Source: Selaginella tamariscina
Lineage: Eukaryota > Streptophyta > Lycopodiopsida > Selaginellales > Selaginellaceae
DNA length: 64,000 nucleotides
NCBI GenBank assembly: GCA_003024785.1
Contig: PUQB01000210.1
Location: 334,998-398,997, forward strand
Direction: 5' to 3'
Every line of letters begins with the position of its first letter. Position 1 is the stretch's first letter. Position numbers and translations under genes: made by a program. The notes below the pieces were generated by a model that had not been told where the DNA came from, did no database searches, and worked only from the letters and a program-made list of their open reading frames with translations. Shown here in pieces: positions 23,797-59,039 of this stretch.

Positions 23797-26067
23797 ACTT
23801 TCTTCTTGCGGAGCTAGTGTGTGTGGATCCTAAGATCTAGTGGAGCACCAAGCACATGAAGCTTGAGTATAGTGAAGTCAAAGACATTTGGTTTGAAACA
23901 AATCTTAAGTCTCCAAACAAGTTCTTTTACTGTCACCTTAAGCAAAGCTGTTGTGCGAGGAGTTTGCTAACGTCTTCCCTCTCGAGCTACCTCATGGCTT
24001 ACCACATGCAAGAGGTGTAAAGCATGAGATTGTGTTGGAACAGGGTATGAAAGCCATTTACTGTAAGCCATTCCAACTGAGCCATGCTAAAGGAGCAAGA
24101 GGTTAAGAGACAAGTGATGGAGCTATTGGAATATGGCTTCATACAACTGAGCAAGTCTCCATTTGGTGCACTAGTATTGCTTGTCAGGAAGAAAGATGGC
24201 ACCATGAGGATGTGCATAGACTATAGAGCTCTCAACAAGTAAACAGTGAAGGACAGGATGCCCATGCCACGTGTGGATACTATCATGGATCATCTCGGTG
24301 GAGCCAGAGTGTTCACCAAGATAGATTTGCACAGTGGGTATTATTAGATTGTTGTGAAAAGAGGAAGATATTTACATAACTGTTTTCAACACTAGCTTTG
24401 GGCATTTCAAGTTCACTGTTATGCCATTTGGCTTAACAAATGCCCCAGTCACATTCACTCGGTTGATGACTGAGGTGTTTGGTGACTACTTATATGACTT
24501 TGTGAAGATCTTCCTCGACAATATTCTTATTTACAATAAGAATATGAAGGAGCATGTGCAGCATTTGCAGCATTTGCGAAGAGTTCTTTAGTTGTTGAGG
24601 GAGAACAAGCTCTATACAAAGAAGAGCAAATGTGCACTTGCTCAGTATGAAGTGGAGTATTTGGGTCACATTGTGACGCCAAGTGGAGTGAAGATTGATC
24701 CACAAAAGGTGGTAATGGTGAAGCAATGGCCAGTTCCTAGCAATGCAAAAAAGTTACGGAGTTTCTTGGGCATGGTTGGTTATTATCAGCGGCATGTTAA
24801 GGATTATGCCAAGAAAGCTTCTCTGTTAACTAGGTTGTTGAGGAAGGACGTTCCCTTTGCATGAAGTGCTTGAGAGGAGCAGTTTCCAAGCTTTGAAACA
24901 AGCTTTGGTACGTGCACTAGTTTTATGTATTGCAGATCTCTAGTATCGTGTGATGCAAGTGGAGTGGCCATTGGAGTTGTACTTATGCAAGAGGAAAGGC
25001 CTATTGCTTATGAGAGTCGTACTTCTTGCATAGCAACATACTCAACGTATGAGCAAGAATTACTGGCTATTGTTAATGCATTACGAATTTGGAGGCACTA
25101 TCTTTATGGTGCAAGTTTCAAGGTGTTTACAAATCACAAGCCTTTGGTGTATTTGTTCACATAGAAAGAGTTGTCAATAAGCTCGTTAGATGGTTAAGCT
25201 CATGGATTTTGGCAAATTTCTTATTGAGCATCGTGCGGGGAAGGTTAACGTGGTGGCAGATGCTTTGTCACGTGTTAAGAGAGCCACCATAGTTGGAGAA
25301 TTCCAAACACGCTTATATAATGCATTAATAAGGACGGTCAATGAGTTTAGCCATGTAGTTCAACATGCTCAAGCACATTGTAATACAAAACTCCATCTTG
25401 AAATGAAAATGGTTGCTCTAGCTATCCTTTGAGCTCGTGTATCTTCCTCGTGTGGACCATTTGATCAACCAGGTACTATATTTTCATCATGATCGCCCGG
25501 AGGTTGGTCATTTTGGGGAGAGGAAAACGTATGAGTTGATCAAGAGGAGGTTCTATTGGAGGAATATGAAAGATGATATTATAGAGTACTACAAGACTTG
25601 TGACAAGTGTCAGCAAGTAAAGGTGCCCAGGGAGAAACCAGGTGGGCTATTAGTACCATTGCCTATTCTGGACAGGCAATGGGGCAGTATCTCTATTGAC
25701 TTTGTCACTTAATTGCCAAGGACACAGTGGCATTGGAATGAGTCCATACTATGCTATGTTTGAACGGCATACCAAGACAGCTTTTGAGTTGGGTTTAGCA
25801 AGTAAGAAAGCTCAAGGCAACATGGATGAGAAAGCTAAAGATCTGAGTGTTGAACTTAGAAACATTCAGAGTTTGTGCAAGAAGAACTTACAAGCAGTTC
25901 AGAGCCGAGCTATCAAGTTTGTTAATGAGCACATAAGCTTCCAAGAGTTCTAGGTGGGAGATTATGTATATCTCCGAGTGGTATTTGTCACACATGTAAG
26001 GCAAAACACTGTTATGGCCTTACGGAAGGGACACAATGATAAGTTGTCTCCTAGGTACTCAGATGTA

Positions 26068-26089
26068 CGTTGTAACTAAAGTGGGCATG
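26068..26089 (+). repeat. Outer terminal inverted repeat, left copy
   Basis: Contains GTTGTAACTAAAGTGGGC. The inverse complement ends the right copy at 58,590-58,611. Homology between the arms, and the retrotransposon outside, both stop here. Confidence 0.85.
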
Positions 26090-26349
26090 ATACGTGAAAA
26101 TGGGAATATAAAATAAATTACTAATTAATACTTAAGTTTTAATTATTAATTAATCATTTAATTAATATGTAATTAAGCCTTAAATATTAATTAATTAATT
26201 AATTAATCCTTCAATAACCTTACTTAGTAAGGAATATTCCTAAAATATCTTAGAATATTCATATTATTCTAAAAATAGTTTACAAAATGAAGAAATACTA
26301 TCAAACATAATTACAAATGAAATCATTTTCTTATCAACATGTTAATTTT

Positions 26350-27300
26350 TTATAAATACTTTCTTCTAATACAAGAAATCTCTCATTTTGTCTAAATCAT
26401 CACTCTCCGGATTAATCAAATCATTTTGGTCAATATCTTGATGTTGTTGCCACCACTTAACACTCTCACGAATGCAATTGGGAGTTGCCATCCTTGTTAA
26501 TACATAAGATGTAATAGAAGGTCTGCATAAAGGCTCATCTAAAAATGACGTTCCTTAAGAATAATATTATAAAGCGCCCGGTTGCTATCCTTCATTTTAT
26601 AAAATTCAAAATCACGAGAAAGAAAAGCTTCAGGAAATGTATGATACGGTGGATACTGCTCACAAAAATTTTCGAGATTCTTCTTTCTAGGCACGTATCC
26701 AAGTAGTTCACTAGCTCATCCATGATATCGGTATCAGAATATGGATCGAAAGTGATTGGATGAATACAAGCAATGTTTTGGTTGAGCATAGCCTTCTGAG
26801 GAGAGTCGTCTACTACTAAGATATGTGCATTCTTCATTATCCTTAAGCGACTGATCTCCCCATGAGTCCCAATTATTCTTTCATTCTTGAAGAAGTATGG
26901 CTTGCTTTCCTTTCTATATTGTGAAATTCGAGAGGTTTATAACATATTCGCTGGTCAAAAATCCAATCTTTACGAATCACCTCTTCTGCAACACTACAAT
27001 GTTTCTTAAGCAAATTCAACAGCGGTGTTAAGTTATGAATCTGCATGCATGACCAAATCCCCACAAGCGCACCCATCTCCTTAAGCTTTTGAAAGAGACG
27101 ATCCAACCCTGGACGAAAAATAATATCATATCGAAATTTACCATGACAAGGAATGAAATCTCCTTGTTTGATTTCTTTTTTCCTATCCTCGGGCCTTTGT
27201 CGATGAAGCAGAACACCATTGACATCCAACAACACAATATGGCCATGAGTAACATGGATAGCGTTGCCTCTTGAATACTTTGCAAATCACTTGTTTGCTC
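26350..27300 (-). pseudogene. HAD (FCP1/NIF-like) phosphatase, left copy, frameshifted
   Basis: Counterpart of the intact frame at 57,382-58,329. The HAD motif I segment LLDVNGVLLHR is at about 27,200. Frame is lost after FHNI (about 26,920), again after NYLDTCL (about 26,690) and in the C-terminal part near 26,550. Otherwise nearly identical to the right copy, so the lesions are recent or are consensus errors. Confidence 0.75.
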
Positions 27301-27339
27301 CCTTTCACATTTATCCGTTGACTATATCGTTGCCTATCC

Positions 27340-27600
27340 CTTCATCATTTAATTGTACATCATCCTTACAAGATTCAGATATTGCATGCTGAAGAAATTG
27401 ATTTCGGAACTGAAGCCAATAAAAATGATGATGAAAAACGAAGTGGCCCCATGGTAACGATGTTTTGAGCTGCATTATTATCCATTTCCTGCATGAACTC
27501 TGTCATTCTGACATGTGGCACAAGAAATTGTCGCCAAACCCCTCTCTTACCTCATGGCAATGCTGAAAATCCATGTTCTCAATGTTTCATTACATCTGCA
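27340..27600 (-). other. Conserved segment upstream of the HAD gene, left copy
   Basis: Matches the right-copy segment 57,068-57,319 and the third copy at 63,790-64,000. Contains peptide matches such as LHHHFYWLQFRNQFLQ; it may be a 5' exon of the HAD gene. No family recognised. Confidence 0.4.
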
Positions 27601-27752
27601 AAATGATAATTAGCTGACCTTAAAATTATCAAGGTATATTATTTACCTTGTTAATGTGTGACCCATGTTTGAACTAAAAGCTTCATTAATCCTTGAGAAT
27701 TTATTTTCTGTACAAATATAAACGAAATATACAAAAATGCCTTATGTTACAC

Positions 27753-30700
27753 TCATTTACAACTATTCGTCACTCTAACATTCAATAATTCTTCTTCGCT
27801 ATTACCTTCTGAGTGAGAAGAAGAAGGTCTAAGCCGCTTGTGAGATGGTTCAAGATCTTCTTTTCTATTGATGTTTCCATATGTGAATGTTCTGTACTCC
27901 TCGAGATAACTTCCGGTCTAATATTGATTGAAGTTCGTCCAGACTCCGACATTGAACCAGATTCGTCTTCAGAGCTATCGCACTTCTGGAGGGAACTTTC
28001 TCAAATACTCCTTTATGGATTCGTTGGGGTACTCAGTTGAGAACCTATCTATCCACTTGTTCAGGTCCTCAACCATGGTCTTATCCTTTTCAACGGCAAA
28101 CACACATGTATGCCGAAGGTAACACTCCTTCAAGACGGACCCCCTAGTGCAGTAGTCAAAAACCCACGCATCACTGTGAGGACCCCTGATCAAGTTGACG
28201 ATGCTCCGTGCCGCTTGACTTGTAATGTTTGGATAACGTACATTGCCGAATACGTCACTCACCTATCGGTGTATCGGATGGAGGTTCAGGGCCGTTGGAG
28301 TGCAAACAGATGCCTGGCCAGTCATTTGGAAGCTTGAAATTGTTTGGCGCATTCCTAACAACCAAGTGAACAACGGTATCAATGCACTTGGGATTAGCAT
28401 CGTTCATATAAAATCCTGTCCAACGATGTCTATTCTTCTTGGCGAAGGCGAAGGCAAAAGTATCGGTGACATGAGCAAGAATCAAGAAATAAATACCTGA
28501 AAAAGTAGGTATCAGTGAAGAGCGCAAGCATGAATTCAATAATAAATACCTTCTATGTATATGCTTGCACGGCTAAGTTTCTCCACCAGATCCTCTAGTG
28601 CCCTATCTGTCGAAAGATTTTTTGACACCCGCCGATCCATCACGAACAATTGAAACGGTTTCCTACAAGCAGTGATGTTACCCCATAAAGTCTCCGAATC
28701 TAACAACAAACATCTGTAGGGCTTGTCGTGATTCGTAGCATCCTCCTTTATAAGGTTCAATTCGGTTCTCCGCTGCTGAAGGACTGCCATAAGAGAAGGC
28801 GTCATCCCAATGTTCTCCTTTTTGGCGTTGGCGTGCAATAGATTCTTGCCTAGATCTTCCGATTGGTTCACCCATTCGACAAGCATATCATCGTTCGTCA
28901 CATGCAAATATTTGCTGACCTCTTCATATGTTGAGTCGAGGTCCAACCCAGTTTGTGGCAGTGTATTCCCAACCACTCCTTGAAATGCCTGACCGTCTTC
29001 AACTCCATTGCCTTGAGATGAAAAGGAGAGGTTGGGCTGCTGTTATTAATTTGTAGTTTGCCATCGATCACCAAATCAGCCAAGACTTCCATCTCCTCCA
29101 TCGTTGTTCCATTTAAAGGCTTCAACCATGTGAGCTTGAAATCGTTGTCTACATCCTTTGTAGATTGAACAGACTTAGCCTTCGGCGTCTTACTGGGTTT
29201 CTTTGCAGACTTTCTGAGGGCTCCCCTTCACTTGTCTGCTTCTTCTTCAGTGTTCCTTTTGAAAAGGATTCCATAATCCCCAACCATTTGGCAAAGATCC
29301 TATCTTCGGGGCAAGAAATCAACATCATCAGAAAGGATGTTTCCTTCCCGCCCACCTGGGCAAAATCAACTGCTGCAATTTCTTCAACTCTCTGAGAAAA
29401 AAGACAGATTAATATACCGGCGAGATAAATCCCGCCCAACAATTTGCTTACCCGGTAGTTCGCAGATTGTGTATTCCTGCAGTAGCTCTTTGTGGTCGCT
29501 CAAGAGATTCCCACACGGATCGCGTGTGTTTAAACTTCTCCCATATTTTGCTGTTGTAGTGGTTGGTGTCGGCAGCGTCCCATTCCGCCGATAACTTATG
29601 GTACTGCTCGATTGTGAGATTCGGCTTAGCTAAAAACGCCGATCTTTTTGTCAGCTTCTCACGGGTATGCTCGGAAAGTTTTGTTGCCATCGTTCCTTTG
29701 TTGTGTTCATCGAGAAGTCGTTGGGCTGCCGTTATTGTGTGCTGGCCACTAATGATGTAGTACTTGATAGATTTTCTATTCTCCGTCTGAATCTTCATGA
29801 GTTGTTCTGGTGTTGTGATCCAGACTTTGTCAGCGCCCTTCCTTCTTTCATAGTATGGACACAAAACAGCATTATGTGGAACGGTATAAGAATTGTCGTC
29901 CTTCATCTTCTCCATGAGCTCAGCTACACGTTCCTGGTTGAGTGGCCTGTAATTGAAGTTTGGGTTGACGCTGCAATATTTAACCCTACAAGGATAAATC
30001 TTTTCATCCAACATCATTTCCTTGTGACTTATTGCAGCATGAGATGCCACAGGTGCAGCTGACAAAACGATTGATGATTTTCTTTTGCGATCCGAATCAA
30101 CATGTGTGATCCCCGACTGCAGCTGTTCTAGTGTTCTCGGCACACTCTTCCAGCTCCCGAAGCTTCCTAAGCAAATTGAACGTGATCTGTAGAGAACCTG
30201 AGACCGAGCCACCCTCTCAATCTCCCTTATGATGTCGCTGTGTTCTTCTTCAATGTGAAGAGGGACGATTGCTCCACTTGTGGATGTTCTATATTGAAGC
30301 AATCTCTGCTGAAAATACACCTACTCGATGAGTCTGAAGATCTTCGAAGTAGACATCTAATTGGATCCCCTCCATAGATGGGCTTTCGTTGAGCTGAAGA
30401 AGAACTCCACGGTCAACATCATTAGTGAACACGTGAACATCATTATCCACAAGTCGACAACACCACCCGAGATTATTGTTGTAACTGGCGACCTCTGGAT
30501 CCGAGAACGTGACATTGGATGGCAAGGCATATCTGTCGAGAATCGTCCAATCTGGGTTCGCAGCCTGCTTTCGGGTGCTTGACTAGCGAATCTACTTTCC
30601 ATTGTTTTGCTTGTCCATGAGATGTGACAGAGGTTAATTTGACAGCAACCATGGTTGCTCCAATGCGCTTCCCATTTATCTTAAAATATGGCCAAGTTGA

Positions 30701-30855
30701 TTCCAGAATCCCCCTGCCCATCTCTTCTCCTGCTCTCGTCTTCAATGTCACCTCAATTCCACATCTGTATACAACAGTATTTAATTCTTCAAGCACATAT
30801 CCGAGTATAACAGATTTTATTTTAATTCTTACCCTGAATTTGACGACGACTCCAT
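27753..30855 (-). pseudogene. ParB-like / DNA-methylase-like fusion gene, left copy, frameshifted
   Basis: Same exon plan as the right copy: ATG at 30,853-30,855 (MESSSNSG), a short first intron, a long exon carrying the ParB-like domain (about 30,060-29,650), an intron containing a palindrome-like site (29,418-29,442), a Lys-rich region, then the C-terminal methylase-like part (28,540-27,970). In this copy the junction GGRVSKNLSTDRALEDLV (about 28,620) is open where the right copy is shifted. Other breaks occur near 30,300 (the VFSAE segment) and near 28,935 (one T missing in the TSTYEEV segment). The C-terminus ends in an acidic, Ser-rich tail (SHSEGNSEEEL). Confidence 0.75.
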
Positions 30856-31016
30856 ACTAATCACTGAATCTCCTTATTTGATTAAATCGTCCTTCTGCAA
30901 AATAATACACTATGAATACAATTTATATAAAAACGCACAAACACTTGTCTAAACCCGAATATACAAAAATAATACACTGATAAATTCACATACACCTGAG
31001 AGAAGTGGACAGGATT

Positions 31017-31106
31017 AACTGTCCGAAGCTAACATTTGTGATAGTGCAAAAAACTGATAACATTTGGTTTTAGAACCACCACAAATGTGAGCTTTGGACA
31101 GTTATA
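31017..31106. promoter_or_regulatory. Conserved inverted repeat upstream of the ParB-like gene, left copy
   Basis: Arms AACTGTCCGAAGCT.ACATTTGTG and CACAAATGTGAGCTTTGGACAGTT face each other around about 40 bases. The same structure is kept in the right copy. It lies between the palindrome array and the gene start, so a regulatory role or foldback structure is possible. Confidence 0.55.
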
Positions 31107-31224
31107 CATGGTTTACTGGCTTTTACTCAAAATATTATGATAAGCAAAATATTATGATAAGATGATAAAAGTAAACAAAATGAGATATGCAACTTATATA
31201 TAGTCATAAACATATATATTCACA

Positions 31225-32155
31225 TGGAAGGTGCGGCGGGATTTATCTCGCCACATCTTTTATGCCTCCTAAAAGAGTGGGCGGGATTAATCTCGCCACC
31301 TTTCTGGAGGCCCTGAATGGGTGTGCGGGATTAATCCCGCCACCTTTCTCGTTCTCAGAGAGAATTGGGCAGGATTTATTTCTCACACCCCTTCAGGGGC
31401 TCCAGAAAGGCGGCGGGATTAATCCCGCCCACCATGTAAGGCATGGTGAAATTAATCCCACCACCCTTCTCAGTTCCCTCCATTGGTATTTTGTAAACCT
31501 TTCCGTCTCAGACAGAGTTAGTCGGGATTGATTCAACATACCAATGGAGGAAAAAAAGAAGGGTGGCGGGATTAATCCCGCCAATCCGCCACCGATAGAA
31601 GGTTCGGAGAGATTAATCCCGCCGCCCTCTCGTAAATCATGCGCTCACACATATATATTGGCTGCGGGATTAATCCCGCGGCATTTTGAACAGGGATGGG
31701 TGGGGGCGGGATTAATCCCGCCGCTTATATCCTGCGGAAGTGCCTGAGCGGCGGATTAATCCCGCCGCCCTCCGCGAAGGGCATGAGCGTGGGGCGGGAT
31801 TAATCCCGCCGTTCATGTCCTGCGTGAATTCCCTGGGCGGCGGATTAATCCCGCCGCCTTACGCGCAGGACATGTCATGCAGGCTCTTCGGTTAGCCTTC
31901 CGTGCAGGATCTTTCATGCAGGCTCTTCGGTTAGCCTCATGAGCGGCGAATTAATCCCGCCGCCCATCCCCTGTAAATGCCCTGTGCGGAATCCGGTGGG
32001 ATTAATCCCGCCCATTAGGGCCTTCACACATGCCATTGCCGGCGAGATAAATCCCGCCGCATTCCGCGCAGGGCATGGGTGGGCGGCGGGATTAATCCCG
32101 CCGCCTTCGGTTTATCCTAGAGCGGCGGGATTAATCCCGCCGCTCGAGGCTTAGC
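31225..32155. repeat. Palindrome array A, left copy
   Basis: Roughly 20 copies or variants of the perfect 18-bp palindrome GGCGGGATTAATCCCGCC, at irregular spacing of about 35-60 bases, with partly repeated spacers (for example the GCAGG(A/G)CATG and GGCTCTTCGGTTAGCC types). Variants such as GGCGAGATTAATCTCGCC keep symmetry. Shorter than the right-copy equivalent (about 930 versus 1,550 bases). Confidence 0.9.
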
Positions 32156-32159
32156 GTGT

Positions 32160-32215
32160 GTGCAAGAGATAAAATTAATAAATAAAAAAATTATACAGAT
32201 AAAAACACACACATA

Positions 32216-32258
<43 letters not shown>

Positions 32259-33530
32259 GTATAGGAGTGTACGTGTGTGTGCAAGAGATAGATAAATAAA
32301 TAAAATTATACAGTACTGGTACACATAATATATGTGTGTTATATGTACATAGGTATATATATGTGTGTATATGTATATCGTGTGTATGCGTGTGAGCGAA
32401 ACAAATAAAATCATACAGATAAACAAACACACACACACACATATATATACACAGGAGTGTGTGTGTGCGAAAGATAAAACTAATAAATAAATAAAATTAT
32501 ACAGATAAACACACACATATATATGTGTGTATATAGATATATAACCCATAGAGAAAGAGAGAGAGTCTGTGAATATATAAGCATATATATAAACTAGTGT
32601 TGTATACTATTGTTAATATGCATTGATTATATATAATATGTGTGTGTGTGTGTGAAAGCAGTGTGCGTGTGTGTGGGAGAGATAGATCAATAAAAAATTA
32701 TNNNNNNNNNNNNNNNNNNNNNNNNNNNNNNNNNNNNNNNNNNNNNNNNNNNNNNNNNNNNNNNNNNNNNNNNNNNNNNNNNNNNNNNNNNNNNNNNNNN
32801 NNNNNNNNNNNNNNNNNNNNNNNNNNNNNNNNNNNNNNNNNNNNNNNNNNNNNNNNNNNNNNNNNNNNNNNNNNNNNNNNNNNNNNNNNNNNNNNNNNNN
32901 NNNNNNNNNNNNNNNNNNNNNNNNNNNNNNNNNNNNNNNNNNNNNNNNNNNNNNNNNNNNNNNNNNNNNNNNNNNNNNNNNNNNNNNNNNNNNNNNNNNN
33001 NNNNNNNNNNNNNNNNNNNNNNNNNNNNNNNNNNNNNNNNNNNNNNNNNNNNNNNNNNNNNNNNNNNNNNNNNNNNNNNNNNNNNNNNNNNNNNNNNNNN
33101 NNNNNNNNNNNNNNNNNNNNNNNNNNNNNNNNNNNNNNNNNNNNNNNNNNNNNNNNNNNNNNNNNNNNNNNNNNNNNNNNNNNNNNNNNNNNNNNNNNNN
33201 NNNNNNNNNNNNNNNNNNNNNNNNNNNNNNNNNNNNNNNNNNNNNNNNNNNNNNNNNNNNNNNNNNNNNNNNNNNNNNNNNNNNNNNNNNNNNNNNNNNN
33301 NNNNNNNNNNNNNNNNNNNNNNNNNNNNNNNNNNNNNNNNNNNNNNNNNNNNNNNNNNNNNNNNNNNNNNNNNNNNNNNNNNNNNNNNNNNNNNNNNNNN
33401 NNNNNNNNNNNNNNNNNNNNNNNNNNNNNNNNNNNNNNNNNNNNNNNNNNNNNNNNNNNNNNNNNNNNNNNNNNAATTATACGCACACTCCTATACATAT
33501 ATACATACATACACACACACACACACAGAT
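32160..33530. repeat. Microsatellite block around the assembly gap, left copy
   Basis: Dominated by (CA/TG)n and (TA)n with AAATAAATAAAATTATACAGATAAA units, similar to several tandem blocks in the right copy (50,800-51,900). No gene. Apparent open frames here are low-complexity artefacts. Confidence 0.85.
32702..33474. other. Assembly gap (773 N)
   Basis: Flanks align to the right copy on either side of about 50,867-51,156 (some 290 bases of microsatellite), so the true missing length may be near 0.3 kb rather than 773. Confidence 0.95.
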
Positions 33531-33916
33531 CTCACCTGTGTGGACAGCCGCCGCCGCCGATTTCACAGCCGCCGCCTCTTGAAACCCTAAGAATATACCT
33601 AAACCCTAAAGGAATTAAATATATATATCAACCCTAATAGAATATTCCTTCTGAGAATATACTTAAACCCTAAAAAGAATAAAATATAGATTCGCCCTAA
33701 ACGAATATTCTTTTATTATATTATTAGCGCGTGCGTGTGCGTGGGTGTATCACATACACCTCAAAAATATAAATCATGCAGGGATTTAACATGTGTGTGT
33801 CCATGAGAGTGTTAAAGTTTCATGTGTATCAATACATACATACACATTGCATATATTAATACACATAATATATACATACACACGTGTATACACACAGACA
33901 TACACACATATTACAT

Positions 33917-34427
33917 GGGTTTAGGGTTTAGGGTTTAGGGTTTTGGATTTAGGATGGATCATGCATGGTGTGTATGTATGAGAGAAGAGAGAGTGTTGAA
34001 AAATTATTTTTGTACACATTGCATATATTAGTACACATATATACTTACACATATTATACACAGATATACATACATAGTATATGAAGAGAGAGACAGTACA
34101 TATTATGGATCATGCATGGTGTGTATTATACACACAGACATACATACATATTAGTACATAATATTAGAGAGACCGAGTACATATTATAGATCATGCATGG
34201 TGTGTATGTTTGAGAGAAGAGAGACAGTACATATTAACATGGATCATGCATGGTGTGTATGTATGAGAGAAGACAGAAAGTACACATATATACATACAGA
34301 GTACACATATACATACAGAGTACACATATATACATGCACACGTGTATACACACAGACATACATACATATTACATGAGTAAATTCATTGTGTTACATATTA
34401 GGGTTTAGGGTTTAGGGTTTAGGGTTT
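33917..34427 (+). repeat. Interstitial telomere-like motifs and CATGCATGGTGTGTAT repeats, left copy
   Basis: TTTAGGG runs of 3-4 units at 33,917-33,940 and 34,401-34,427, with a set of GATCATGCATGGTGTGTAT repeats between them (33,957, 34,109, 34,191, 34,244). The same arrangement occurs in reverse in the right copy at 49,914-50,424. Confidence 0.8.
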
Positions 34428-34649
34428 GCTCCCAACAAGCTTAATATAAATATTACACATGTAAATTCAATGTGTTACATACAGTCACACAGATTGAGTA
34501 CATATATCATACATGCGTTGAACATGATGTTTTCAATAAAGAAGCAACCTATTTCTTCAGTTTGGTTTAGGGTTGTGCATGTGTGTGCATATGTGTTTTT
34601 GTAAGTTCTTGTAATGCGTGTGTAAATTTATGATTGTGTTTATATATGT

Positions 34650-36020: not shown

Positions 36021-36023
36021 CCG

Positions 36024-36838: not shown

Positions 36839-36987
36839 AGTTGTATTAATCAAACATGAGATATTATCTCTAACATAATTATGTATTATTGCATATGCAT
36901 ATTATTAAGTAACCGTAATTCAGATTTCTTAAAAATATTGCATAAACAGATATCATAAATAATACAATTATTTATGTGCAGGACAAT

Positions 36988-43520: not shown

Positions 43521-43524
43521 GTGC

Positions 43525-43770: not shown

Positions 43771-43802
43771 GGGTTGTTGTGTGCCTTCACAACACAAATG
43801 CA

Positions 43803-47421: not shown

Positions 47422-47572
47422 ATTGTCCTGCACATAAATAATTGTATTATTTATGATATCTGTTTATGCAATATTTTAAGAAATCTGAATTACGGTTACT
47501 TAATAATATGCATATGCAATAATACATAATTATGTTTAGAGATAATATCTCATGTTTGATTAATACAACTGA

Positions 47573-48305
47573 TGGGCGGGATTAATCCCGCCCACGAATC
47601 CCTCCGACGAGGAACGGTCGGCGGGATTAATCCCGCCGCCGACTCAACCCCTTCGGAGAGAGTCGGCGGGATTAATCCCGCCTTGGACTCCCTCCGACAA
47701 GGAAGAGCCGGCGGGATTAATCCCGCCGCCTCTTCCCTCGGGGGAGTCCGGCGGGATTAATCCCGCCGACTCTCTCCGACGAGGAAGGGAGTCGGCGGGA
47801 TTAATCCCGCCGACTCATCCTCGCCGGAGAGAGTCGGCGGGATTAATCCCGCCGGACTCCCTCCGCGGAGGAAGAGGCGGCGGGATTAATCCCGCCGGCT
47901 CTTCCTTGTCGGAGGGAGTCCAAGGCGGGATTAATCCCGCCCACAATTCTTACGACGGGGAATGGGTGGCGGGATTAAACCCGCACATAACTCTCTCCAA
48001 AACTATGATTTCAAAGAGATCTCGGGATAAATCCTGTCCCCAAATCTTTAAAACAGGGAAGTGGTGGCGAGATTAATCCCGCCACCCCTTCCCTGCCTCC
48101 TAAAATGGTTGGCGGGATTAATCCCGCCGACAACTCTTTCTAATAAATTCTGGTAACTCTTCATCAGTTGAGAAGGTTATCGACGGGATTAATCCCGCCA
48201 CTCTTTTTCAGTGGCGGAGAAGCATTGCCCGGGAGATGGTGGCGGGATTAATCCCGCCACTTTTCAAAGAGGCGAAAAAGAAATGGCCGGATTAATCCCG
48301 CCGCC
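47573..48305. repeat. Palindrome array B, right copy
   Basis: About 16 units of GGCGGGATTAATCCCGCC and variants, upstream of the transposase. The order of distinctive spacers (TTGTCGGAGGGAGTCCAAGG, CTCATCCTCGCCGGAGAG) matches left array B in reverse, with gains and losses of units. Confidence 0.9.
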
Positions 48306-49680
48306 CCGGTTAACCTAGAATATTAAGTTAAAAGGATATTTAAACGTGATAAATCCCTAACGGAATATATTATAATCCTAATGCATTTCTAAACCCCTAA
48401 ATTGTAATTTTAAGAGAGAATGTAAGAGAGTGAATCTTAATAAGTATTTTTAAATTTGTTTATAATACTTACTTGTAAACAGCACTGAAGGCGCCGTGCT
48501 TTCCTATAAAGAATAGCACCCAATTTAATCTCGCTCCTGAGATGATCACTATGAAGAAAAAAGAAGATCTAAAGAGTGAAAAATACAGAAATGAAGAAAC
48601 CCTTGCCGGAGAAAGAACCAGATCTGAATTTGAGTGGGAAATTAAATGCATTTTCAAATTTACATGTCAGACCGACAATACATATGTCAGAAATTCAAAT
48701 TTTTTAAAAAGAACAGAAAATAAAATTTAAGATGAGTTGACACAAATATCCGACACTCTGACATATATACTCTCCAGTTCCAATGAGTATTTTAAAATTG
48801 CATTTAATGTTATTCAAGTGATTCAAGCTGTTTAATATTACGAAATTTTAGACTATATTCTACATTCTTAGTATTCAAGTATATTTATATTATATATATA
48901 TATATATAAATATATACTTATACAATAAATAAATTGATATATTATTATGTATCATTTAAAATATATTCATAGTCTGTTTATTATTATTATTTTCTTAATT
49001 ACTCGAGTATTTAGTTTTCATTTCCTAGTATCAATGGGATATTCTTTAATATTTTATTAATATTTGAAGAATATTCTAATATTAAACCTGATTATCATAA
49101 TTAAATTAGTCTTGTTCTTAATTATTGCAGTAATTATTCTACATTTGTATATATTAATGGGATTTTCTCAATTAATTTGTTATTATTTCAAGAATATTCA
49201 TGTGTTAAACCTTATTATCAATATTAAATTAATACACACTATGAACATATTTTAAATTATACATAATAATACATCATTTTATCTAATATATAGTCATATA
49301 TAGTTTTAATAATATATATATTAATATCATTTCCTTAATTACTTGAGTAATTAATCTTCTTTATATTAATGGGATATTCTTTATTATTTTCTTATTATTC
49401 CAAGAATATTCCAATATTAAACATGATTATGATAATTAATTTAGTTAATTATTTGAGTACTTAATTTACATTTGTATATATTAATGGGATTTTCTCAATT
49501 AATTTCTTATTATTTCAAGAATATTTCAATGTTAAACCTTTTTATCAATATTAAATTAATATATATTATTAAAACTATATATGGCTATATATTAGATAAA
49601 ATCATATATTATTATGTATAATTTAAAATATGTTCCTAGTGTGTTTATTAATTTTATTTTCTTAATTATTCGATGTTTGT
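48306..49680. other. AT-rich block, right copy
   Basis: Mirror of 34,650-36,020, with the same internal duplications of GAATATTC..AATAATAA units. No gene recognised. Confidence 0.55.
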
Positions 49681-51072
49681 TTTGCACACATATATAAACA
49701 CAATCATAAATTTACACACGCATTACAAGAACTTACAAAAACACATATGCACACACATGCACAACCCTAAACCAAACTGAAGAAATAGGTTGCTTCTTTA
49801 TTGAAAACATCATGTTCAACGCATGTATGATATATGTACTCAATCTGTGTGACTGTATGTAACACATTGAATTTACATGTGTAATATTTATATTAAGCTT
49901 GTTGGGAGCAAACCCTAAACCCTAAACCCTAAACCCTAATATGTAACACAATGAATTTACTCATGTAATATGTATGTATGTCTGTGTGTATACACGTGTG
50001 CATGTATATATGTGTACTCTATGTATATATGTGTACTCTGTATGTATATATGTGTACTTTCTGTCTTCTCTCATACATACACACCATGCATGATCCATGT
50101 TAATATGTACTGTCTCTCTTCTCTCAAACATACACACCATGCATGATCTATAATATGTACTCGGTCTCTCTAATATTATGTACTAATATGTATGTATGTC
50201 TGTGTGTATAATACACACCATGCATGATCCATAATATGTACTGTCTCTCTTCTCTCATATACTATGTATGTATATCTGTGTATAATATGTGTAAGTATAT
50301 ATGTGTACTAATATATGCAATGTGTACAAAAATAATTTTTCAACACTCTCTCTTCTCTCATACATACACACCATGCATGATCCATCCTAAATCCAAAACC
50401 CTAAACCCTAAACCCTAAACCCATGTAATATGTGTGTATGTCTGTGTGTATACACGTGTGTATGTATATATTATGTGTATTAATATATGCAATGTGTATG
50501 TATGTATTGATACACATGAAACTTTAACACTCTCATGGACACACACATGTTAAATCCCTGCATGATTTATATTTTTGAGGTGTATGTGATACACCCACGC
50601 ACACGCACGCGCTAATAATATAATGAAAGAATATTCGTTTAGGGCGAATCTATATTTTATTCTTTTTAGGGTTTAAGTATATTCTCAGAAGGAATATTCT
50701 ATTAGGGTTGATATATATATTTAATTCCTTTAGGGTTTAGGTATATTCTTAGGGTTTCAAGAGGCGGCGGCTGTGAAATCGGCGGCGGCGGCTGTGCACA
50801 CAGGTGAGATCTGTGTGTGTGTGTGTGTGTATGTATGTATATATGTATAGGAGTGTGCGTATAATTTTATTTATTAGTTTTATCTCTCGCACACACACGC
50901 ACACTCCTGTGTATGTATATGTGTGTGTGGGTGTGTGTTTGTTTATCTGTATGATTTTCACACACGCATACACACGATATACATATACACATATATATAT
51001 ATACCTATATACATATATACATACATATATTATGTGTACCAGTATCTGTAAATTTTTTTTTATTGATCTTGC

Positions 51073-51137
<65 letters not shown>

Positions 51138-51199
51138 TATGTGTACCAGTATCTGTAAATTTTTTTTTTTGATCTATCTCTCCCACACACGCGCACTGC

Positions 51200-51247
<48 letters not shown>

Positions 51248-51905
51248 CAACATAGTTTATATATATGCTTATATATTCATATGGGTTATATATCTATATA
51301 CACACATATATATATGTGTGTGTTTTTCTGTATAATTTTATTTATTTATTAGTTTTATCTCTCGCACACACACGCACACTCCTGTGTATGTATATGTGTG
51401 TGTGTGTGTGTTTGTTTATCTGTATGATTTTATTTGTTTCGCTCACACACGCATACACACAATATACATATACACATATATATATACCTATATACATATA
51501 TACATACATACAACACTAGTTTATATATATGCTTATATATTCACAGACTCTCTCTCTTTCTCTATAGATTATATATCTATATACACACATATATATGTGT
51601 GTGTTTATCTGTATAATTTTATTTATTTATTAGTTTTATCTTTCGCACACACACGCACACTCCTGTGTATATATATATGTGTGTGTGTGTGTTTGTTTAT
51701 CTGTATGATTTTATTTGTTTCGCTCACACGCATACACACGATATACATATACACACATATATATACCTATGTACACACATATATTAGGTGTACCAGTACT
51801 GTATAATTTATTTATTTATCTATCTCTTGCACACACACGTACACTCCTATACATACATACATACATATATATACACACACACATATATATGTGTGTGTTT
51901 TTATC
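49681..51905. repeat. Microsatellite and telomere-like block, right copy
   Basis: CCCTAAA runs at 49,914-49,939 and 50,397-50,424, ACACACCATGCATGATC repeats at 50,080-50,380, a GC-rich GGCGGCGGCTGTG segment at 50,760-50,800, then several tandem blocks of (CA)n/(TA)n with TCTGTATGATTTTATTTGTTTC and TCTCGCACACACACGCACACTCCTG. More block copies than the left arm, where this part is interrupted by the N gap. Confidence 0.85.
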
Positions 51906-51917
51906 TCGCTAAGCCCC

Positions 51918-53465
51918 TCGAGCGGCGGGATTAATCCCGCCGCTATATAGTTGGGGCCATGGCGGCGGGATTAATCCGCCGCCGAGGCCCTTCAGGCATG
52001 GGTGGCGGCGGGATTAATCCCGCCGCCGAGGCCCTTCACGCAGGCTATGGGCGGCGGGATTAATCCCGCCGCTCTACGACAAACCGAAGAGCGGCGGGAT
52101 TAATCCCGCCGCCATGGCCTGCGTGAGGGGCCTCGGCGGCGGGATTAATCCCGCCGCTCATCCATGCCCTGCGCGGAATGCGGCGGGATTTATCTCGCCG
52201 GCAATGGCCTGTGTGAAGGTTCTAATGGGCGGGATTAATCCCGCCGGATTCCGCGCAGGGCATTTACAGGGAATGGGCGGCGGGATTAATCCCGCCGCCG
52301 AGGCCCCTCACGCAGGCCATGGGCGGCGGGATTAATCCCGCCGCTCTTCGGTTTGTCGTAGAGCGGCGGGATTAATCCCGCCCCCAGGGAATTCACGCAG
52401 GACAGAACGCCGGGATTAATCCGGCCCCACGCTCATGCCCTTCGCGGAGGGCGGCGGATTAATCCCCGCCGTTCATGTCCTGCGTGAATTCCTGGGCGGC
52501 GGGATTAATCCCGCCCCCACCATCCCTGTTCAAAAATGCCGCAGCCAATATATATGTGTGAGCGCATGATTTACGAGAGGCGGCGGATTAGCCTCCGAAC
52601 CTTCATTACCCGGTGGCGAGATTAATCTCCGAACCTTCATTACCCATTGGTATGTTGAATCAATCCCGCCTAACTCTGTCTGAGACGGAGAAGGTTTACA
52701 AAAATACCAATGGAGGGAACCGAGAAGGGTGGTGGGATTAATTTCACCATCCCTTACATGGTGGGCGGGATTAATCCCGCCGGTACGCATGCCCTGCGCG
52801 AAATCGGGCGGGATTTATCCCGCCGCCATTGGCTGCCTGAAGGGCCTAGGCGGCGGGATTTAATCCCGCAAGATTTCGCACATGGCCTGGGAGGCGGGAT
52901 TCATCCCGCCGAACGCCAATGCCCTGTGCGAAATCGGGCATTTATCCCGCCGCCATTGGCCTGCCTGAAGTGCCTAGGCGTCGGAATTAATCCCGCCCGA
53001 TTCCGCGCAGGAATTGGCGTCCGGAGGGATTAATCCGCCGCATAGGGATCGAGTGAAGGCCCTGGCGGCGGGATTAATCCCGCCGAGTCTTCAATGCCTG
53101 TTGGAGAAATGAATCTCGCCACCCTTTCCTTTTTCCTCCATTGGTGAGTTGGACCAATCCCAAACATTTCTGTCTAAGACGTAGAAGGTTTACAACATAC
53201 CAATGGAGGGGACTGGGAAGGGTGACGAGATTCATTTAACCATCCCTTACATGGTGGGCGAGATTAATCCGCCTCCTTTCTGGAGTCACTGAAGGGGTGT
53301 GAGAAATAAATCCTGCCCAGTTCTCTCTGAGACCGAGAAGGGTGGCAAGATTAATTCCGCACTCCCGTTCAAGGCCTCCAGAAAGGTGGCGAGATTAATC
53401 CCGCCCACTCTTTCAGGAGGCATTGAAGGGGTGGCGAGATTAATCCCGCCGCACCTTCCATGTGA
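51918..53465. repeat. Palindrome array A, right copy
   Basis: Around 35 copies or variants of GGCGGGATTAATCCCGCC in about 1.55 kb. It ends with units of lower similarity (GGCGAGATTAATC) about 330 bases before the ParB-like gene. Spacers such as GAGGCCCTTCA(C/G)GCA and CATGCCCTGCGCG recur. It is longer than the left array by about 600 bases, so unit number has changed since the copies separated. Confidence 0.9.
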
Positions 53466-53561
53466 ATATATATGTGTATTAGTATATATAAGTTGCATAT
53501 CTCATTTTATTTACTTTTATCATCTTATCATATTTCGAGTAAAAGCTAGGAATCTATGTAA

Positions 53562-53650
53562 AACTGTCCAGAGCTCACATTTGTGGTGGTTCTAAAACGA
53601 AATGTTATCTTTCTTTTGCACTAACACAAATGTGAGCTTCGGACAGTTAA
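53562..53650. promoter_or_regulatory. Conserved inverted repeat upstream of the ParB-like gene, right copy
   Basis: Arms AACTGTCC.GAGCTCACATTTGTG and CACAAATGTGAGCTTCGGACAGTT around a loop of about 40 bases, conserved with the left copy and 140 bases 5' of the gene start. A TTTTATATAA box at about 53,715 lies between it and the ATG. Confidence 0.55.
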
Positions 53651-53788
53651 TTACGTCTACTTCTCTCTGTGTATTATTTTTGTATATTCGGATTTATACA
53701 AGTGTGTGTGCGTTTTTATATAATTTATTTATAGTGTATTATTTTGCAGAAGGACGATTTGATCAAACAAGGAGATCGAGTCATTAGT

Positions 53789-56700
53789 ATGGAGTCGTCG
53801 TCAAATTCTGGGTAAGAATTAAAATAAAATCTGTTATACTCGGATACTTGAACTAATCATTTTTGTATTCAGATGTGGAATTGAGGTGACATTAAAGACA
53901 AGAGCAGGAGAAGAGATGGGCAGGGGGATTTTGGAATCAACTTGGCCATATTTTAAGATAAATGGGAAGCGCATTGGAGCAACCATGGTTGCTGTCAAAT
54001 TAACCTCTGTCACATCTCATGGACAAGCAAAACAATGGAAAGTTGATTCGCTAGTCAAGCACCCGAAAGCAGGCTGCGAACCCAGATTGGACGATGCTCG
54101 ACAGATATGCCTTGTTCCATCCAATGTCACGTTCTCGGATCCAGAGGTCGTCAGTTACAACATTAATCTCGGGTGGTTTTGTCGACTTGTGGATAATGAT
54201 GTTCACGTGTTCACTAATGATGTTGACCTTGGAGTTCTTCTTCAACTCAACGAAAGCCCATCTATGGAGGGGATCCATCTGGATGTCTACTTCGAAGATC
54301 TTCAGACTCATCGAGTAGGTGTATTGTCAGGAGATATTGTTTCACAATACAGAAAATCAGCAAGTGGAGCAATCTTCCCTCTTGACATTGAAGAAGAACA
54401 CAGCGACATCATAAGGGAGATTGAGAAGGTGGCTCGGTCTCAGGTTCTCTACAGATCACGTTCAATTTGCTTAGGAAGCTTCGGGAGCTGGAGGAGTGTG
54501 CCGAGAACACTAGAACAGCTGCAGTCGGGGATCACACATGTTGATTCGGATCGCAAAAGAAAATCATCAATCGTTTTGTCAGCTGCACCTGTGGCATCTC
54601 ATGCTGCAATAAGTCACAAGGAAATGATGTTGGATGATAAGATTTATCCTTGTAGGGTTAAATATTGCAGCGTCAACCCAAACTTCAATTACAGGCCACT
54701 CAACCAGGAACGTGTAGCTGAGCTCATGGAGAAGATGAAGGACGACAATTCTTATACCGTTCCACATAATGCTGTTTTGTGTCCATACTATGAAAGAAGG
54801 AAGGGTGCTGACAAAGTCTGGATCACAACACCAGAACAACTCATGAAGATTCAGACGGAGAATAAAAGATCTATCAAGTACTACATCATTAGTGGCCAGC
54901 ACACAATAACGGCAGCCCAACGACTTCTCGATGAACACAACAAAGGAACGATGGCAACAAAACTTTCCGAGCATACCCGTGAGAAGCTGACAAAAAGATC
55001 GGCGTTTTTAGCTAAGCCGAATCTCACAATCGAGCAGTACCATAAGTTATCGGCGGAATGGGACGCTGCCGACACCAACCACTACAACAGCAAAATATGG
55101 GAGAAGTTTAAACACACGCGAGCCGTGTGGGAATCTCTTCAGCGACCACAAAGAGCTACCGCAGGGAATACACAATCTGCGGAATACCGGGTAAGCAAAT
55201 TGTTTGGGCGGGATTTATCTCGCCGGTATATTAATCTGTCTTTTTCCTCAGAGAGTTGAAGAAATTGCAGCAGTTGATTTTGCCCAGGTGGGCGGGAAGG
55301 AAACATCATTTCTGATGATGTTGATTTCTTGCCCCGAAGATAGGATCTTTGCCAAATGGTTGGGGATTATGGAATCCTTTTCAAAAGGAACACTGAAGAA
55401 GAAGCAGACAAGTGAAGGGGAGCCCTCAGAAAAGTCTGCAAAGAAACCCAGTAAGACGCCGAAGGCTAAGTCTGTTCAATCTACAAAGGATGTAGACAAC
55501 GATTTCAAGCTCACATGGTTGAAGCCTTTAAATGGAACAACGATGGAGGAGATGGAAGTCTTGGCTGATTTGGTGATCGATGGCAAACTACAAATTAATA
55601 ACAGCAGCCCAACCTCTCCTTTTCATCTCAAGGCAATGGAGTTGAAGACGGTCAGGCATTTCAAGGAGTGGTTGGGAATACACTGCCACAAACTGGGTTG
55701 GACCTCGACTTCAACATATGAAGAGGTTAGCAAATATTTGCATGTGACGAACGATGATATGCTTGTCGAATGGGTGAACCAATCGGAAGATCTAGGCAAG
55801 AATCTATTGCACGCCAACGCCAAAAAGGAGAACATTGGGATGACGCCTTCTCTTATGGCAGTCCTTCAGCAGCGGAGAACCGAATTGAACCTTATAAAGG
55901 AGGATGCTACGAATCACGACAAGCCCTACAGATGTTTGTTGTTAGATTCGGAGACTTTATGGGGTAACATCACTGCTTGTAGGAAACCGTTTCAATTGTT
56001 CGTGATGGATCGGCGGGGTGTCAAAAAATCTTTCGACAGATAGGGCACTAGAGGATCTGGTGGAGAAACTTAGCCGTGCAAGCATATACATAGAAGGTAT
56101 TTATTATTGAATTCATGCTTGCGCTCTTCACTGATCCTACTTTTTCAGGTATTTATTTCTTGATTCTTGCTCATGTCACCGATACTTTTGCCTTCGCCTT
56201 GCCAAGAAGAATAGACATCGTTGGACAGGATTTTATATGAACGATGCTAATCCCAAGTGCATTGATACTGTTGTTCACTTGGTTGTTAGGAATGCGCCAA
56301 ACAATTTCAAGCTTCCAAATGACTGGCCAGGCATCTGTTTGCACTCCAACGGCCCTGAACCTCCATCCGATACACCGATAGGTATGAGTGACATATTCGG
56401 CAATGTACGTTATCCAAACATTACAAGTCAAGCGGCACGGAGCATCGTCAACTTGATCAGGGGTCCTCACAGTGATGCGTGGGTTTTTGACTACTGCACT
56501 AGGGGGTCCGTCTTGAAGGAGTGTTACCTTCGGCATACATGTGTGTGTTTGCCGTTGAGAAGGATAAGACCATGGTTGAGGACCTGAACAAGTGGATAGA
56601 TTGGGTCTCAACTGAGTACCCAACGATCCATAAAGGCGTATTTGAGAAAGTTCCCTCCAGATAAGTGCGATAGCTCTGAAGGTGAATCTGGTTCAATCTC

Positions 56701-56892
56701 GGAGTCTGAGAACGAACATCAATCAGATATTAGACCGGAAGTTATCTCGAGGAGTACAGAACATTCGCACACTCCAGGACCATGGAAACATCAATAGAAG
56801 ATGCAGAAGATCTTGAACCATCTCACAAGCGGCTTAGACCTTCTTCGCCTCATTCAGAAGGTAATAGCGAAGAAGAATTGATAATGAATTGA
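53789..56892 (+). pseudogene. ParB/sulfiredoxin-fold protein fused to a DNA-methylase-like domain, right copy
   Basis: Exon 1 53,789-53,811; exon 2 53,873-55,190; exon 3 55,252-56,096; last exon from 56,149. The N-terminal region (GRGILESTWPYF, RLDDARQICLVPSNVTF) resembles the module at the start of the transposase. The ParB-like domain (residues about 265-360) has LNQERVAELMEKMKDD, YTVPHNAVLCP and YYIISGQHTITAAQRL, the last corresponding to the GxxRxxAA box. A Lys-rich linker follows. Near residue 800-850, YPNITSQAARSIVNLIRG, DAWVFDYCTRGSVLKECYL and TCVFAVEKD match the layout of the N4/N6 class-beta methylase C-terminus (KPxxLxxxLI, DPFxGSGTT, G.E.D), but the GSG loop is altered, so catalysis is doubtful. 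An acidic tail follows. One extra G near 56,015 and a missing base near 56,198 break the frame; the left copy is open at the first. Bacterial and phage ParB-methylase fusions are known. Confidence 0.75.
55206..55226. promoter_or_regulatory. Palindrome-like site inside intron 2 of the ParB-like gene
   Basis: GGCGGGATTTATCTCGCC, a variant of the array palindrome, sits between donor 55,191 and acceptor 55,251. The left copy has the same site at 29,418-29,442. It is the only such unit seen inside a gene. Confidence 0.7.
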
Positions 56893-57067
56893 TAGAGTGA
56901 TGAATAGTTGTAAATGAGTGTAACATAAGGCATTTTTGTATATTTCTTTTATATTTGTACAGAAATAAATTCTCAAGGATTAATGAAGCTTTTAGTTCAA
57001 ACATGGGTCACACATTAACAAGGTAAATAATATACCTTGATAATTTTAAGGTCAGCTAATTATCATT

Positions 57068-57319
57068 TTGCAGATGTATGAAATAATTGAGAACATGGAT
57101 TTTCAGCATTGCCATGAGGTAAGAGAGGGGTTTGGCGAATTTCTTGTGCCACATGTCAGAATGACAGAGTTCATGCAGGAAATGGATAATAATGCAGCTC
57201 AAAACATCGTTACCATGGGGGCCACTTCATTGCATCATCATTTTTATTGGCTTCAGTTCCGAAATCAATTTCTTCAGCGCATGCAATATCTGAATCTTGT
57301 AAGGATGATGTACAATTAA
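57068..57319 (+). other. Conserved segment between the ParB-like and HAD genes, right copy
   Basis: An open stretch includes DFQHCHEVREGFGEFLVPHV, RMTEFMQEMDNNAAQ and LHHHFYWLQFRNQFLQ. Present in all three element copies. Not recognised; may be the 5' part of the HAD gene or an untranslated leader. Confidence 0.4.
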
Positions 57320-57381
57320 ATGATGAAGGATAGGCAACGAAATAGTGGCAACGGATAAATGTGAAAGGGAGCAAACAGTGA

Positions 57382-58329
57382 TTTGCAAAGATTCAAGAGG
57401 CAACGCTATCTCACGTTACTCATGGCCATATTGTGTTGTTGGATGTCAATGGTGTTCTGCTTCATCGACAAAGGCCCGAGGATAGAAAAACAGAAATCAA
57501 ACAAGGAGATTTCATTCCTTGTCATGGTAAATTTCGATATGATATTATTTTTCGTCCAGGGTTGGATCGTCTCTTTCAAAAGCTTAAGGAGATGGGTGCG
57601 CTTGTGGGGATTTGGTCATGCATGCAGATTCATAACTTAACACCGCTGTTGAGTTTACTTAAGAAACATTGTAGTGTTGCAGAAGAGGTGATTCGTAAAG
57701 ATTGGATTTTTGACCAGCGAATGTGTTATAAACCTCTCGAATTTCACAATATAAGAAAGGAAAGCAAGCCATACTTCTTCAAGAATGAAAGAATAATTGG
57801 GACTCATGGGGAGATCAGTCGCTTAAGGATAACGAAGAATGCACATATCTTAGTAGTAGACGACTCTCCTCAGAAGGCTATGCTCAACCAAAACATTGCT
57901 TGTATTCATCCAATCACTTTCGATCCATATTCTGATATCGATATCATGGATGAGCTAGTGAACTACTTGGATACGTGCCTCAGAAAGAAGAATCTCGAAA
58001 ATTTTTGTGAGCAGTATCCACCGTATCATACATTTCCTGAAGCTTTTCTTTCTCGTGATATTGAATTTTATAAAATGAAGGATAGCAACCGGGCGCTTTA
58101 TAATATTATTCTTAAGGAACGTCAGTTTTTAGATGAGCCTTTATGCAGACCTTCTCTTATCACATCTTATGTATTAACAAGGATGGCAACTCCCAATTGC
58201 ATTCGTGAGAGTGTTAAGTGGTGGCAACAACATCAAGATATTGACCAAAATGATTTGATTAATCCGGAGAGTGATGATTTAGACAAAATGAAAAGATTTC
58301 TTTGTATGATAGAAAGAAAGTATTTATAA
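57382..58329 (+). CDS. HAD-superfamily phosphatase, FCP1/NIF-like, right copy (intact frame)
   Basis: Open from just after a TGA at 57,379 to TAA at 58,327, about 315 codons; the true start is not certain because no ATG precedes the motif I region in frame. HAD motif I is HIVLLDVNGVLLHR (DVNGV in place of DxDxT/V: the second Asp is Asn). Motif II is near GIWSCMQIHNLTPLL. The late acidic motif is ILVVDDSPQKAM. This matches the FCP1/TIM50-like group of plant HAD proteins. The substituted Asp suggests weak or no phosphatase activity, as in several plant relatives with DxNG. It is cargo of the element, next to the outer TIR, downstream of and co-directional with the ParB-like gene. The left copy is frameshifted. 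Confidence 0.78.
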   Translation, partial: FAKIQEATLSHVTHGHIVLLDVNGVLLHRQRPEDRKTEIKQGDFIPCHGKFRYDIIFRPGLDRLFQKLKEMGALVGIWSCMQIHNLTPLLSLLKKHCSVAEEVIRKDWIFDQRMCYKPLEFHNIRKESKPYFFKNERIIGTHGEISRLRITKNAHILVVDDSPQKAMLNQNIACIHPITFDPYSDIDIMDELVNYLDTCLRKKNLENFCEQYPPYHTFPEAFLSRDIEFYKMKDSNRALYNIILKERQFLDEPLCRPSLITSYVLTRMATPNCIRESVKWWQQHQDIDQNDLINPESDDLDKMKRFLCMIERKYL

Positions 58330-58589
58330 AAATTAACATGTTGATAAGAAAATGATTTCATTTGTAATTATGTTTGATAGTATTTCTTCATTATTGTAAA
58401 CTATTTTTAGAATAATATGAATATTCTAAGATATTTTAGGAATATTCCTTACTAAGTAAGGTTATTGAAGGATTAATTAATTAATTAATTAATATTTAAG
58501 GCTTAATTACATATTAATTAAATGATTAATTAATAATTAAAACTTAAGTATTAATTAGTAATTTATTTTATATTCCCATTTTCACGTAT
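58330..58589. other. AT-rich outer subterminal region, right copy
   Basis: Contains TTAATTAATTAATTAATTAA and AATATTCTAAGATATTTTAGGAATATTCC. Mirrored at 26,090-26,349; the last 80 bases match the MITE at 15,980-16,040. Confidence 0.6.
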
Positions 58590-58611
58590 CATGCCCACTT
58601 TAGTTACAACG
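58590..58611 (-). repeat. Outer terminal inverted repeat, right copy
   Basis: Complement contains GTTGTAACTAAAGTGGGC, identical to the left outer end. Followed by TGCA. Confidence 0.85.
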
Positions 58612-59039
58612 TGCATATATGTACTAACGTTGACACATTCACATATGTACTATGTGTGTATGTATGTATTGTGTATACGTGAAAATTAACACACTCAATA
58701 ACACCAATATGTTAAACCCATATAATAATATTGTACTATGTGTGCATGATTATATTATTTGTGTGTATGTGATACACCCACACACCTACACACACAAACA
58801 CAATAAGCTTATTGATAATATAATGAAAGAATATTTATTTAGGTTTAAATATATATTATTAATTTTTAATGTTTAGGGTATTCTTAGGGTTTCAAGGTGG
58901 TGGAGTAGAGAGGCGACGAAAGATTTGAAGCAGCGGCACCACAGATTCATAGATCCACTCTCACAAGAAGGCTAGAAGGCGTGGTGGTGTAAGAAAGCAC
59001 GACGATGCAATAAGGTTTAAAGGCAGTTAGCAAGGTTAA

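Follow-up and report, generated by a model that had tools for sequence, protein, structure and literature searches.

Within a 64,000-nt window of Selaginella tamariscina contig PUQB01000210.1, in whose positions all coordinates below are given, we found two large DNA transposons of one family lying in opposite orientations. Element E1 spans 26063..40606 on the plus strand (14.5 kb) and is interrupted by a run of 773 N bases at 32702-33474, and element E2 spans 43798..58616 on the minus strand (14.8 kb); the 3.2-kb spacer between them (40607..43797) contains pieces of an F-box gene. A first-pass annotation had read this locus as two terminal inverted repeat (TIR) elements facing opposite ways and not as one simple palindrome, a view borne out by self-BLAST, by the TIR pattern and by the many single copies of the element found elsewhere in the genome. 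In self-BLAST, E1 (26055-40607) paired with E2 (58624-43797) in pieces, with identities of 94.7% for 26055-31626 against 58624-53064, 97.6% for 33475-36750 against 50866-47575 and 97.8% for 36433-40607 against 47984-43797. The annotation had called the two arms near-identical, which describes the inner halves well, since substitutions there amount to 0-1.9% per 500-base segment and to ~0.2% outside the palindrome array described below, alongside many insertions and deletions (indels) of 1-2 bases. The outer halves, in contrast, differ by 0.2-6.6% per 500-base segment, and the outer repeat region differs by 7-15%. Between 37095-40242 and 47313-44164 we observed many 1-2 base indels without substitutions, as would come from imperfectly polished long reads.

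The ends of the elements were located with a 21-mer TIR pattern, which at up to three mismatches matched the window five times, compared with 0.01 matches expected in shuffled sequences. Three of these matches (26069, 43804 and 58610) fall at element ends that the annotation had placed at 26,068, 43,803 and 58,611; the fourth end that it had proposed, near 40,601, is present, although this right TIR of E1 is degraded (GCCCATTTTTAACAAAC). The remaining two matches, at 15960 and 16253, are both ends of a 0.3-kb derivative on the plus strand (15954..16259; left end placed by BLAST, right end by eye, TIRs by pattern), and since this short element has left and right ends of the kind found on the large elements, the left and right ends function together. 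A third copy, which has decayed and is 81% identical to the accessory-gene region of E1 and E2 in self-BLAST, lies at 62997..63988 on the plus strand and is cut by the window edge. The repeats in the annotation do bound both elements, but the real TIR, at 24 bp, is 6 bases longer than claimed. The bases adjoining the shorter repeat are ATGCAC on the left and ATGCAA on the right in most copies, and because deviations from them occur on one side only, ATGCA... is part of the TIR. For the same reason TGCA, which adjoins most ends, was rejected as a candidate target site duplication (TSD).

The family is both young and present in very many copies. A search of the genome assembly (300.7 Mb, 1,391 contigs) recovered 3,050 exact occurrences of the 18-bp TIR and none of its reversed control, so that the copies with the same ends anticipated in the annotation are indeed numerous. 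Exact 24-bp ends numbered 1,093 on the left and 1,035 on the right, and the short-element form of the TIR occurred 66 times. By our estimate, 1,000 copies of ~14.4 kb would make up ~5% of the genome, with the qualification that some ends may not be part of a complete element.

Flanks were compared in ten whole elements, ten flank pairs and then 18 more pairs, each selected because its left and right TIRs are exact. A 4-bp TSD, differing in sequence between elements, was present at 8/22 elements in the first set (in which E1 and E2 are included) and at 7/18 in the second, whereas mismatched flank pairs agreed at 4 bp in 6/380 and 5/306 cases, respectively; pooled, this corresponds to 15/40 elements versus 11/686 mismatched pairs. 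No repeats of 5-8 bases were present at the flanks of the 18 elements in the second set. The family thus has both hallmarks of a class II TIR transposon, namely inverted ends at many dispersed loci and a fixed 4-bp TSD. Two copies in C180 (L107 and L109), 46 kb apart, have the same 20-base right flank and different left flanks, as would result from an assembly chimera or from recombination. Since these copies share one flank and not the other, they point to recombination between copies or to assembly chimeras as the source of the elements that lack a TSD.

Each element carries a DUF7869 gene whose product, judged from its sequence, is the element's transposase. The E2 gene (44308..47421, minus strand) has one short GT-AG intron at ~45430-45486, and its spliced composite model matches PF25273 at 5.8e-47; the E1 gene (36988..40099, plus strand), likewise with one intron, has frames broken by 1-2 base indels and matches PF25273 at 1.2e-25 over 38979-39668. 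No other Pfam transposase family scored above cut-off in the element proteins, and an N-terminal piece of the transposase gave a weak match to TNP1/EN/SPM (Transposase_23, E 0.025, below cut-off). A genome search for DUF7869 returned at least 300 matches (150 scored of 4,249 candidates), of which 30 were taken as loci, all belonging to this family. In copy L014, exon 1 has an open frame of 659 residues, and exon 2 is open over 391-392 residues in 10/30 of the DUF7869 loci. Eleven comparisons with L014 gave a ratio of nonsynonymous to synonymous substitution rates (dN/dS) of 0-0.39 for exon 1. The idea that the frameshifts mark dead genes was rejected, because most of those in E1 and E2 are indels of 1-2 bases with no accompanying substitutions, and the reading frame is uninterrupted at these positions in other copies.

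Two distant relatives of the transposase (L001 and L002, the latter matching DUF7869 at 1.1e-22) lie on contigs that had been binned with Bacteroidetes genomes and that probably stem from microbial eukaryotes. Invariant in the element and both relatives are the D of (S/H)D.M, the motif QxD...EN and the motif VGHTHEDID, and we infer that the two invariant D residues and HTHEDID may form a D-D-D/E site of RNase-H-like type. The predicted fold of the transposase core was too poor to be used (predicted local distance difference test, pLDDT, 35), and a literature search on DUF7869 found no paper.

Two further genes are carried on the strand opposite the transposase, one for an accessory protein (E2, 53823..56892, plus strand, delimited approximately from open reading frames (ORFs) and dN/dS; E1, 27780..30856, minus strand, the same gene, limits also approximate) and one for a NIF/HAD-type phosphatase (E2, 57382..58326, plus strand; E1, 26350..27286, minus strand, frameshifted, limits approximate). 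The transposase, accessory protein and phosphatase genes lie on the same strands in 12/12 elements, a count of presence and not of intactness. The annotation's view that the cargo is unusual and includes a HAD-type phosphatase agrees with the NIF match of the E2 gene (PF03031, E 3.6e-12). The first motif of NIF/HAD phosphatases contains DxD; in the element it reads DVNG. No relatives were found in four scans of viral contigs.

The accessory protein had been labelled ParB-methylase-like, and by eye the E2 copy has a ParB-like part at ~54621-55151 and a degenerate methylase-like tail at ~56100-56600. The label gained no support from Pfam, NCBIfam, PHROGs, PDB sequences, phages or a fold search, in none of which a family match was found; one search gave three matches at E ~10, another gave two matches to designed repeat proteins in which no stretch passed, and the predicted fold (pLDDT 46) had no Foldseek match at E<=0.001. 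DNA methyltransferases have the motif [DNS]PP[YFW]; in 12/12 elements, none of the three frames on the strand of the accessory gene contains it. The protein is nevertheless under purifying selection: in the five copies whose dS exceeds 0.05, its middle part has a dN/dS of 0.09-0.14, and in the four whose dS exceeds 0.1, its first exon has one of 0.20-0.40.

Between these two gene groups lie two arrays of a perfect 18-bp palindrome, GGCGGGATTAATCCCGCC, with 28-40 copies per element in 12/12 elements, a feature that the annotation had not mentioned. One array stands upstream of the transposase gene (E1, 36027..36835, plus strand, with sites mostly 42-46 bp apart; E2, 47575..48302, minus strand) and the other upstream of the accessory gene (E1, 31235..32141, minus strand; E2, 51924..53450, plus strand). 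Within the window, 69/70 sites with up to three mismatches and 83/89 with up to five lie inside E1 and E2. When 200 palindromes of the same composition were generated by shuffling, one shuffle returned the palindrome itself and the next best gave 3 matches. The position of the arrays is similarly regular: in 12/12 elements the right array ends with a site that starts 169-217 bases before the transposase model (169-173 in 11), upstream of the accessory model the left array begins at a distance of 461-513 bases in 12/12 copies, and 256/357 neighbouring sites less than 80 bp apart are spaced by 42-46 bp. Genome-wide, the exact palindrome occurs at 27,128 sites and its control at 0; of the first 100 sites listed, all in C1, hand comparison showed 95 to be clustered where there is an element end or a DUF7869 match and 5 to lie elsewhere. 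One exact match to the palindrome was also found among viral sequences.

Across 477 sites, the 18 positions of the palindrome hold 1.2-1.9 bits each, compared with at most 0.5 in neighbouring positions. Substitutions were less frequent in sites than in spacers in both arrays, at 4.2% versus 16.4% in one (66/66 pairs) and 7.2% versus 16.2% in the other (65/66 pairs). Such arrays look like a series of sites to which a putative dimeric protein would bind. Bacterial ParB-parS partition systems also have palindromic sites of similar length. The likeness extends to the ParB-like sequence order discerned by eye in the accessory protein; unlike those systems, the element is a nuclear transposon, its protein has no statistical homology to ParB, and no ParA-like gene was noticed among the listed ORFs. 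A lone palindrome-like site, apparently intronic, was seen within the accessory gene (29419-29436 and 55207-55224) in 11/12 elements, and four degraded palindrome-like sites with 4-5 mismatches lie outside the elements at 59975-60089. The AT-rich element centre also contains short telomere-type (TTTAGGG) runs (33917-33953, 34398-34427, 49910-49939 and 50386-50422), which are on the same strand in 12/12 elements.

The annotation could assign the element to no named superfamily. It remains the case that no Pfam transposase besides DUF7869 was found, but the DUF7869 transposase and the 4-bp TSD, which is the TSD length of Sola, narrow the choice; the TSD and the three putative catalytic residues bear a tentative likeness to Sola. 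Sola elements have a DDD-type transposase with three catalytic acidic residues. Mutator-like elements (MULEs) have a ~9-bp TSD and a MULE transposase domain; the present element differs in its 4-bp TSD and in having no MULE Pfam match. The Sola superfamily, listed in Repbase and covered in PMC3627910 and PMC4455052, has TIRs and a 4-bp TSD in common with the Selaginella element. Sola2 is described with a 4-bp TSD (PMC3627910), and curated bivalve Sola1 elements, given an average length of 5.4 kb (PMC10294476), are shorter than the present one. Compared by description, the closest precedent appears to be Sola1-1_Ec32 of the brown alga Ectocarpus, reported as a giant DNA transposon of 21.5 kb with a 1104-aa accessory protein whose gene combines ParB-like DNA-binding and DNA methyltransferase parts and lies on the strand opposite the transposase (PMC12477816). 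According to its authors, accessory proteins of this kind might bind the transposon that encodes them and modify it, and examples from green and red algae are cited there (PMC12477816). Judged from that description, giant size and an accessory gene opposite the transposase are common to both elements. The Selaginella accessory protein, in contrast, has no recognisable methylase motif, and the description of Sola1-1_Ec32 used here mentions neither palindrome arrays nor a phosphatase. The giant KDZ transposons resemble the present element in being very large and carrying accessory genes; they differ in TSD length, described as 8 bp for a Dileera and 7 bp for Kyakuja (PMC12730594, PMC12477816), and our element has no KDZ Pfam match. 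CACTA/EnSpm elements are described with CAC...GTG ends and a 3-bp TSD (PMC12730594), unlike the ATGCA... ends and 4-bp TSD found here.

The mirror-image arrangement itself could have arisen in several ways, and we weighed these by comparing the left and right parts of 12 elements separately, E1 and E2 included. If the pair were a single inverted duplication, or a composite or foldback element moving as a unit, the matching of both pairs of ends would follow naturally, as would the divergence of only 0.23% between the right parts, where E2 is E1's nearest copy. Yet E2 is closer to copy L020 than to E1 in both halves (0.47% against 1.83% on the left, where L024 and L030 come next, and 0.13% against 0.23% on the right), which indicates that low inner-half divergence is common to several family members. 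E1's left part is nearest L030 (1.61%), neither the outer flanks nor the spacer are duplicated, and single 14-15 kb units with both ends occur at many other places. A one-event origin is therefore largely refuted, and we give it scarcely any weight; judged from these sequence distances, E1 and E2 most likely do not represent one event. A serious contender, though one we hold to be the lesser prospect, is that the pair arose, at least in part, during assembly, with contigs linked via near-identical copies. Both elements lack a TSD, the two C180 copies described above share one 20-base right flank and differ in their left flanks, E1 and E2 are separated by many 1-2 base indels without substitutions, and at the N gap of E1 the divergence from E2 falls from 7-8% to ~1% or less, the high side being a repeat region that is variable anyway. 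Against such a join, 33475-64000 has no gap, so that the inner facing ends and the spacer are gap-free, and other contigs hold facing pairs with different spacers: right ends face each other in L118, L119 and L121 and left ends in L120, and no sequence is common to these spacers beyond the element ends. If 1,000-1,500 elements were placed at random, ~11-24 neighbours within 3.2 kb would be expected. Given that copies elsewhere in the genome are closer to E2 than E1 is, and that four other facing pairs exist, the mirror arrangement has no special meaning; it is incidental or partly an effect of assembly.

Alternatives also bear on the arrays and on the class of the element. The arrays could be minisatellites that evolve neutrally, were propagated through tandem duplication and conversion and bind no protein, which would fit their tandem nature, the variation in copy number (28-40 sites), the different tract lengths in E1 and E2 and the 6/89 window sites (up to five mismatches) that lie outside both elements. 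Under neutrality, however, spacers would have stayed as alike as sites, instead of falling to the low information content given above, and 12/12 copies would not be expected to place one array 5' of each of two genes at a near-constant distance; we regard this explanation as somewhat unlikely. Membership in MULE, CACTA/EnSpm, hAT, PIF/Harbinger or KDZ is very improbable: the weak N-terminal TNP1/EN/SPM match speaks for it, whereas only DUF7869 passes the Pfam cut-off, the TSD is 4 bp and the ends read ATGCA... rather than CAC.

The surroundings of the elements include genes with Pfam matches to Glyco_transf_8, PHD finger and F-box, and to O-FucT below threshold. Pieces of a plant-type Glyco_transf_8 (galacturonosyltransferase-like) gene lie to the left of the elements at 6559-9518, and the F-box-like pieces in the spacer are at 41088..42388 on the minus strand (F-box-like, 5.2e-07). 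A tandem array of a ~112-base unit, ~87% alike by self-BLAST, occupies 23130-23796 outside the elements.

Taken together, these data make it probable that E1 and E2 are independent insertions of an autonomous, ~14.4 kb cut-and-paste transposon with a DUF7869 transposase and regulatory palindromes bound by a dimeric protein. The DUF7869 transposase would act on the 24-bp TIRs and make 4-bp staggered cuts that yield the 4-bp TSDs. Two divergent units would face away from the AT-rich centre, the transposase rightward and the accessory protein and phosphatase leftward, and the palindrome arrays would bind a dimeric protein, most likely encoded by the element, that sets the expression of both. That E1 and E2 face each other would be a consequence of how many copies the genome holds, or of contigs joined during assembly. 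Several observations weigh against this interpretation. No transposition was observed, and nothing shows an element protein binding to the palindrome. An exact TSD is missing from 25/40 elements, E1 and E2 among them, and the right part of E1 is nearest to E2, with L020 next at 0.26%. Selection appears weaker in some parts of the proteins, with dN/dS of 0.23-0.84 in transposase exon 2 where defined, 0.29-0.84 in the phosphatase and up to 0.93 in the accessory first exon in close copies, three copies having in-frame stops. Finally, the arrays easily align out of register, which inflates the spacer substitution rate, and the sites were picked by their likeness to the consensus.

The real finding is thus the family itself, characterised by a 4-bp TSD, a transposase of the DUF7869 type and palindrome arrays that are conserved among copies. 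Because the transposon is clearly delimited, was active recently and has a TIR and TSD that were measured, its link to DUF7869 allows this domain, which has no name as yet, to be read as a transposase. The arrays are a candidate DNA target for accessory proteins of the kind described from giant algal transposons (PMC12477816). More speculatively, and on balance we doubt it, the element may possess a self-recognition system in which the ParB-like accessory protein would bind the parS-like arrays upstream of the transposase and accessory genes, as a switch or an anti-silencing mark that would enable more than 1,000 copies of a 14 kb element to persist, with ~27,000 sites genome-wide. If the palindrome is indeed bound by the element's own protein, the self-regulation of very large plant transposons would become directly testable.

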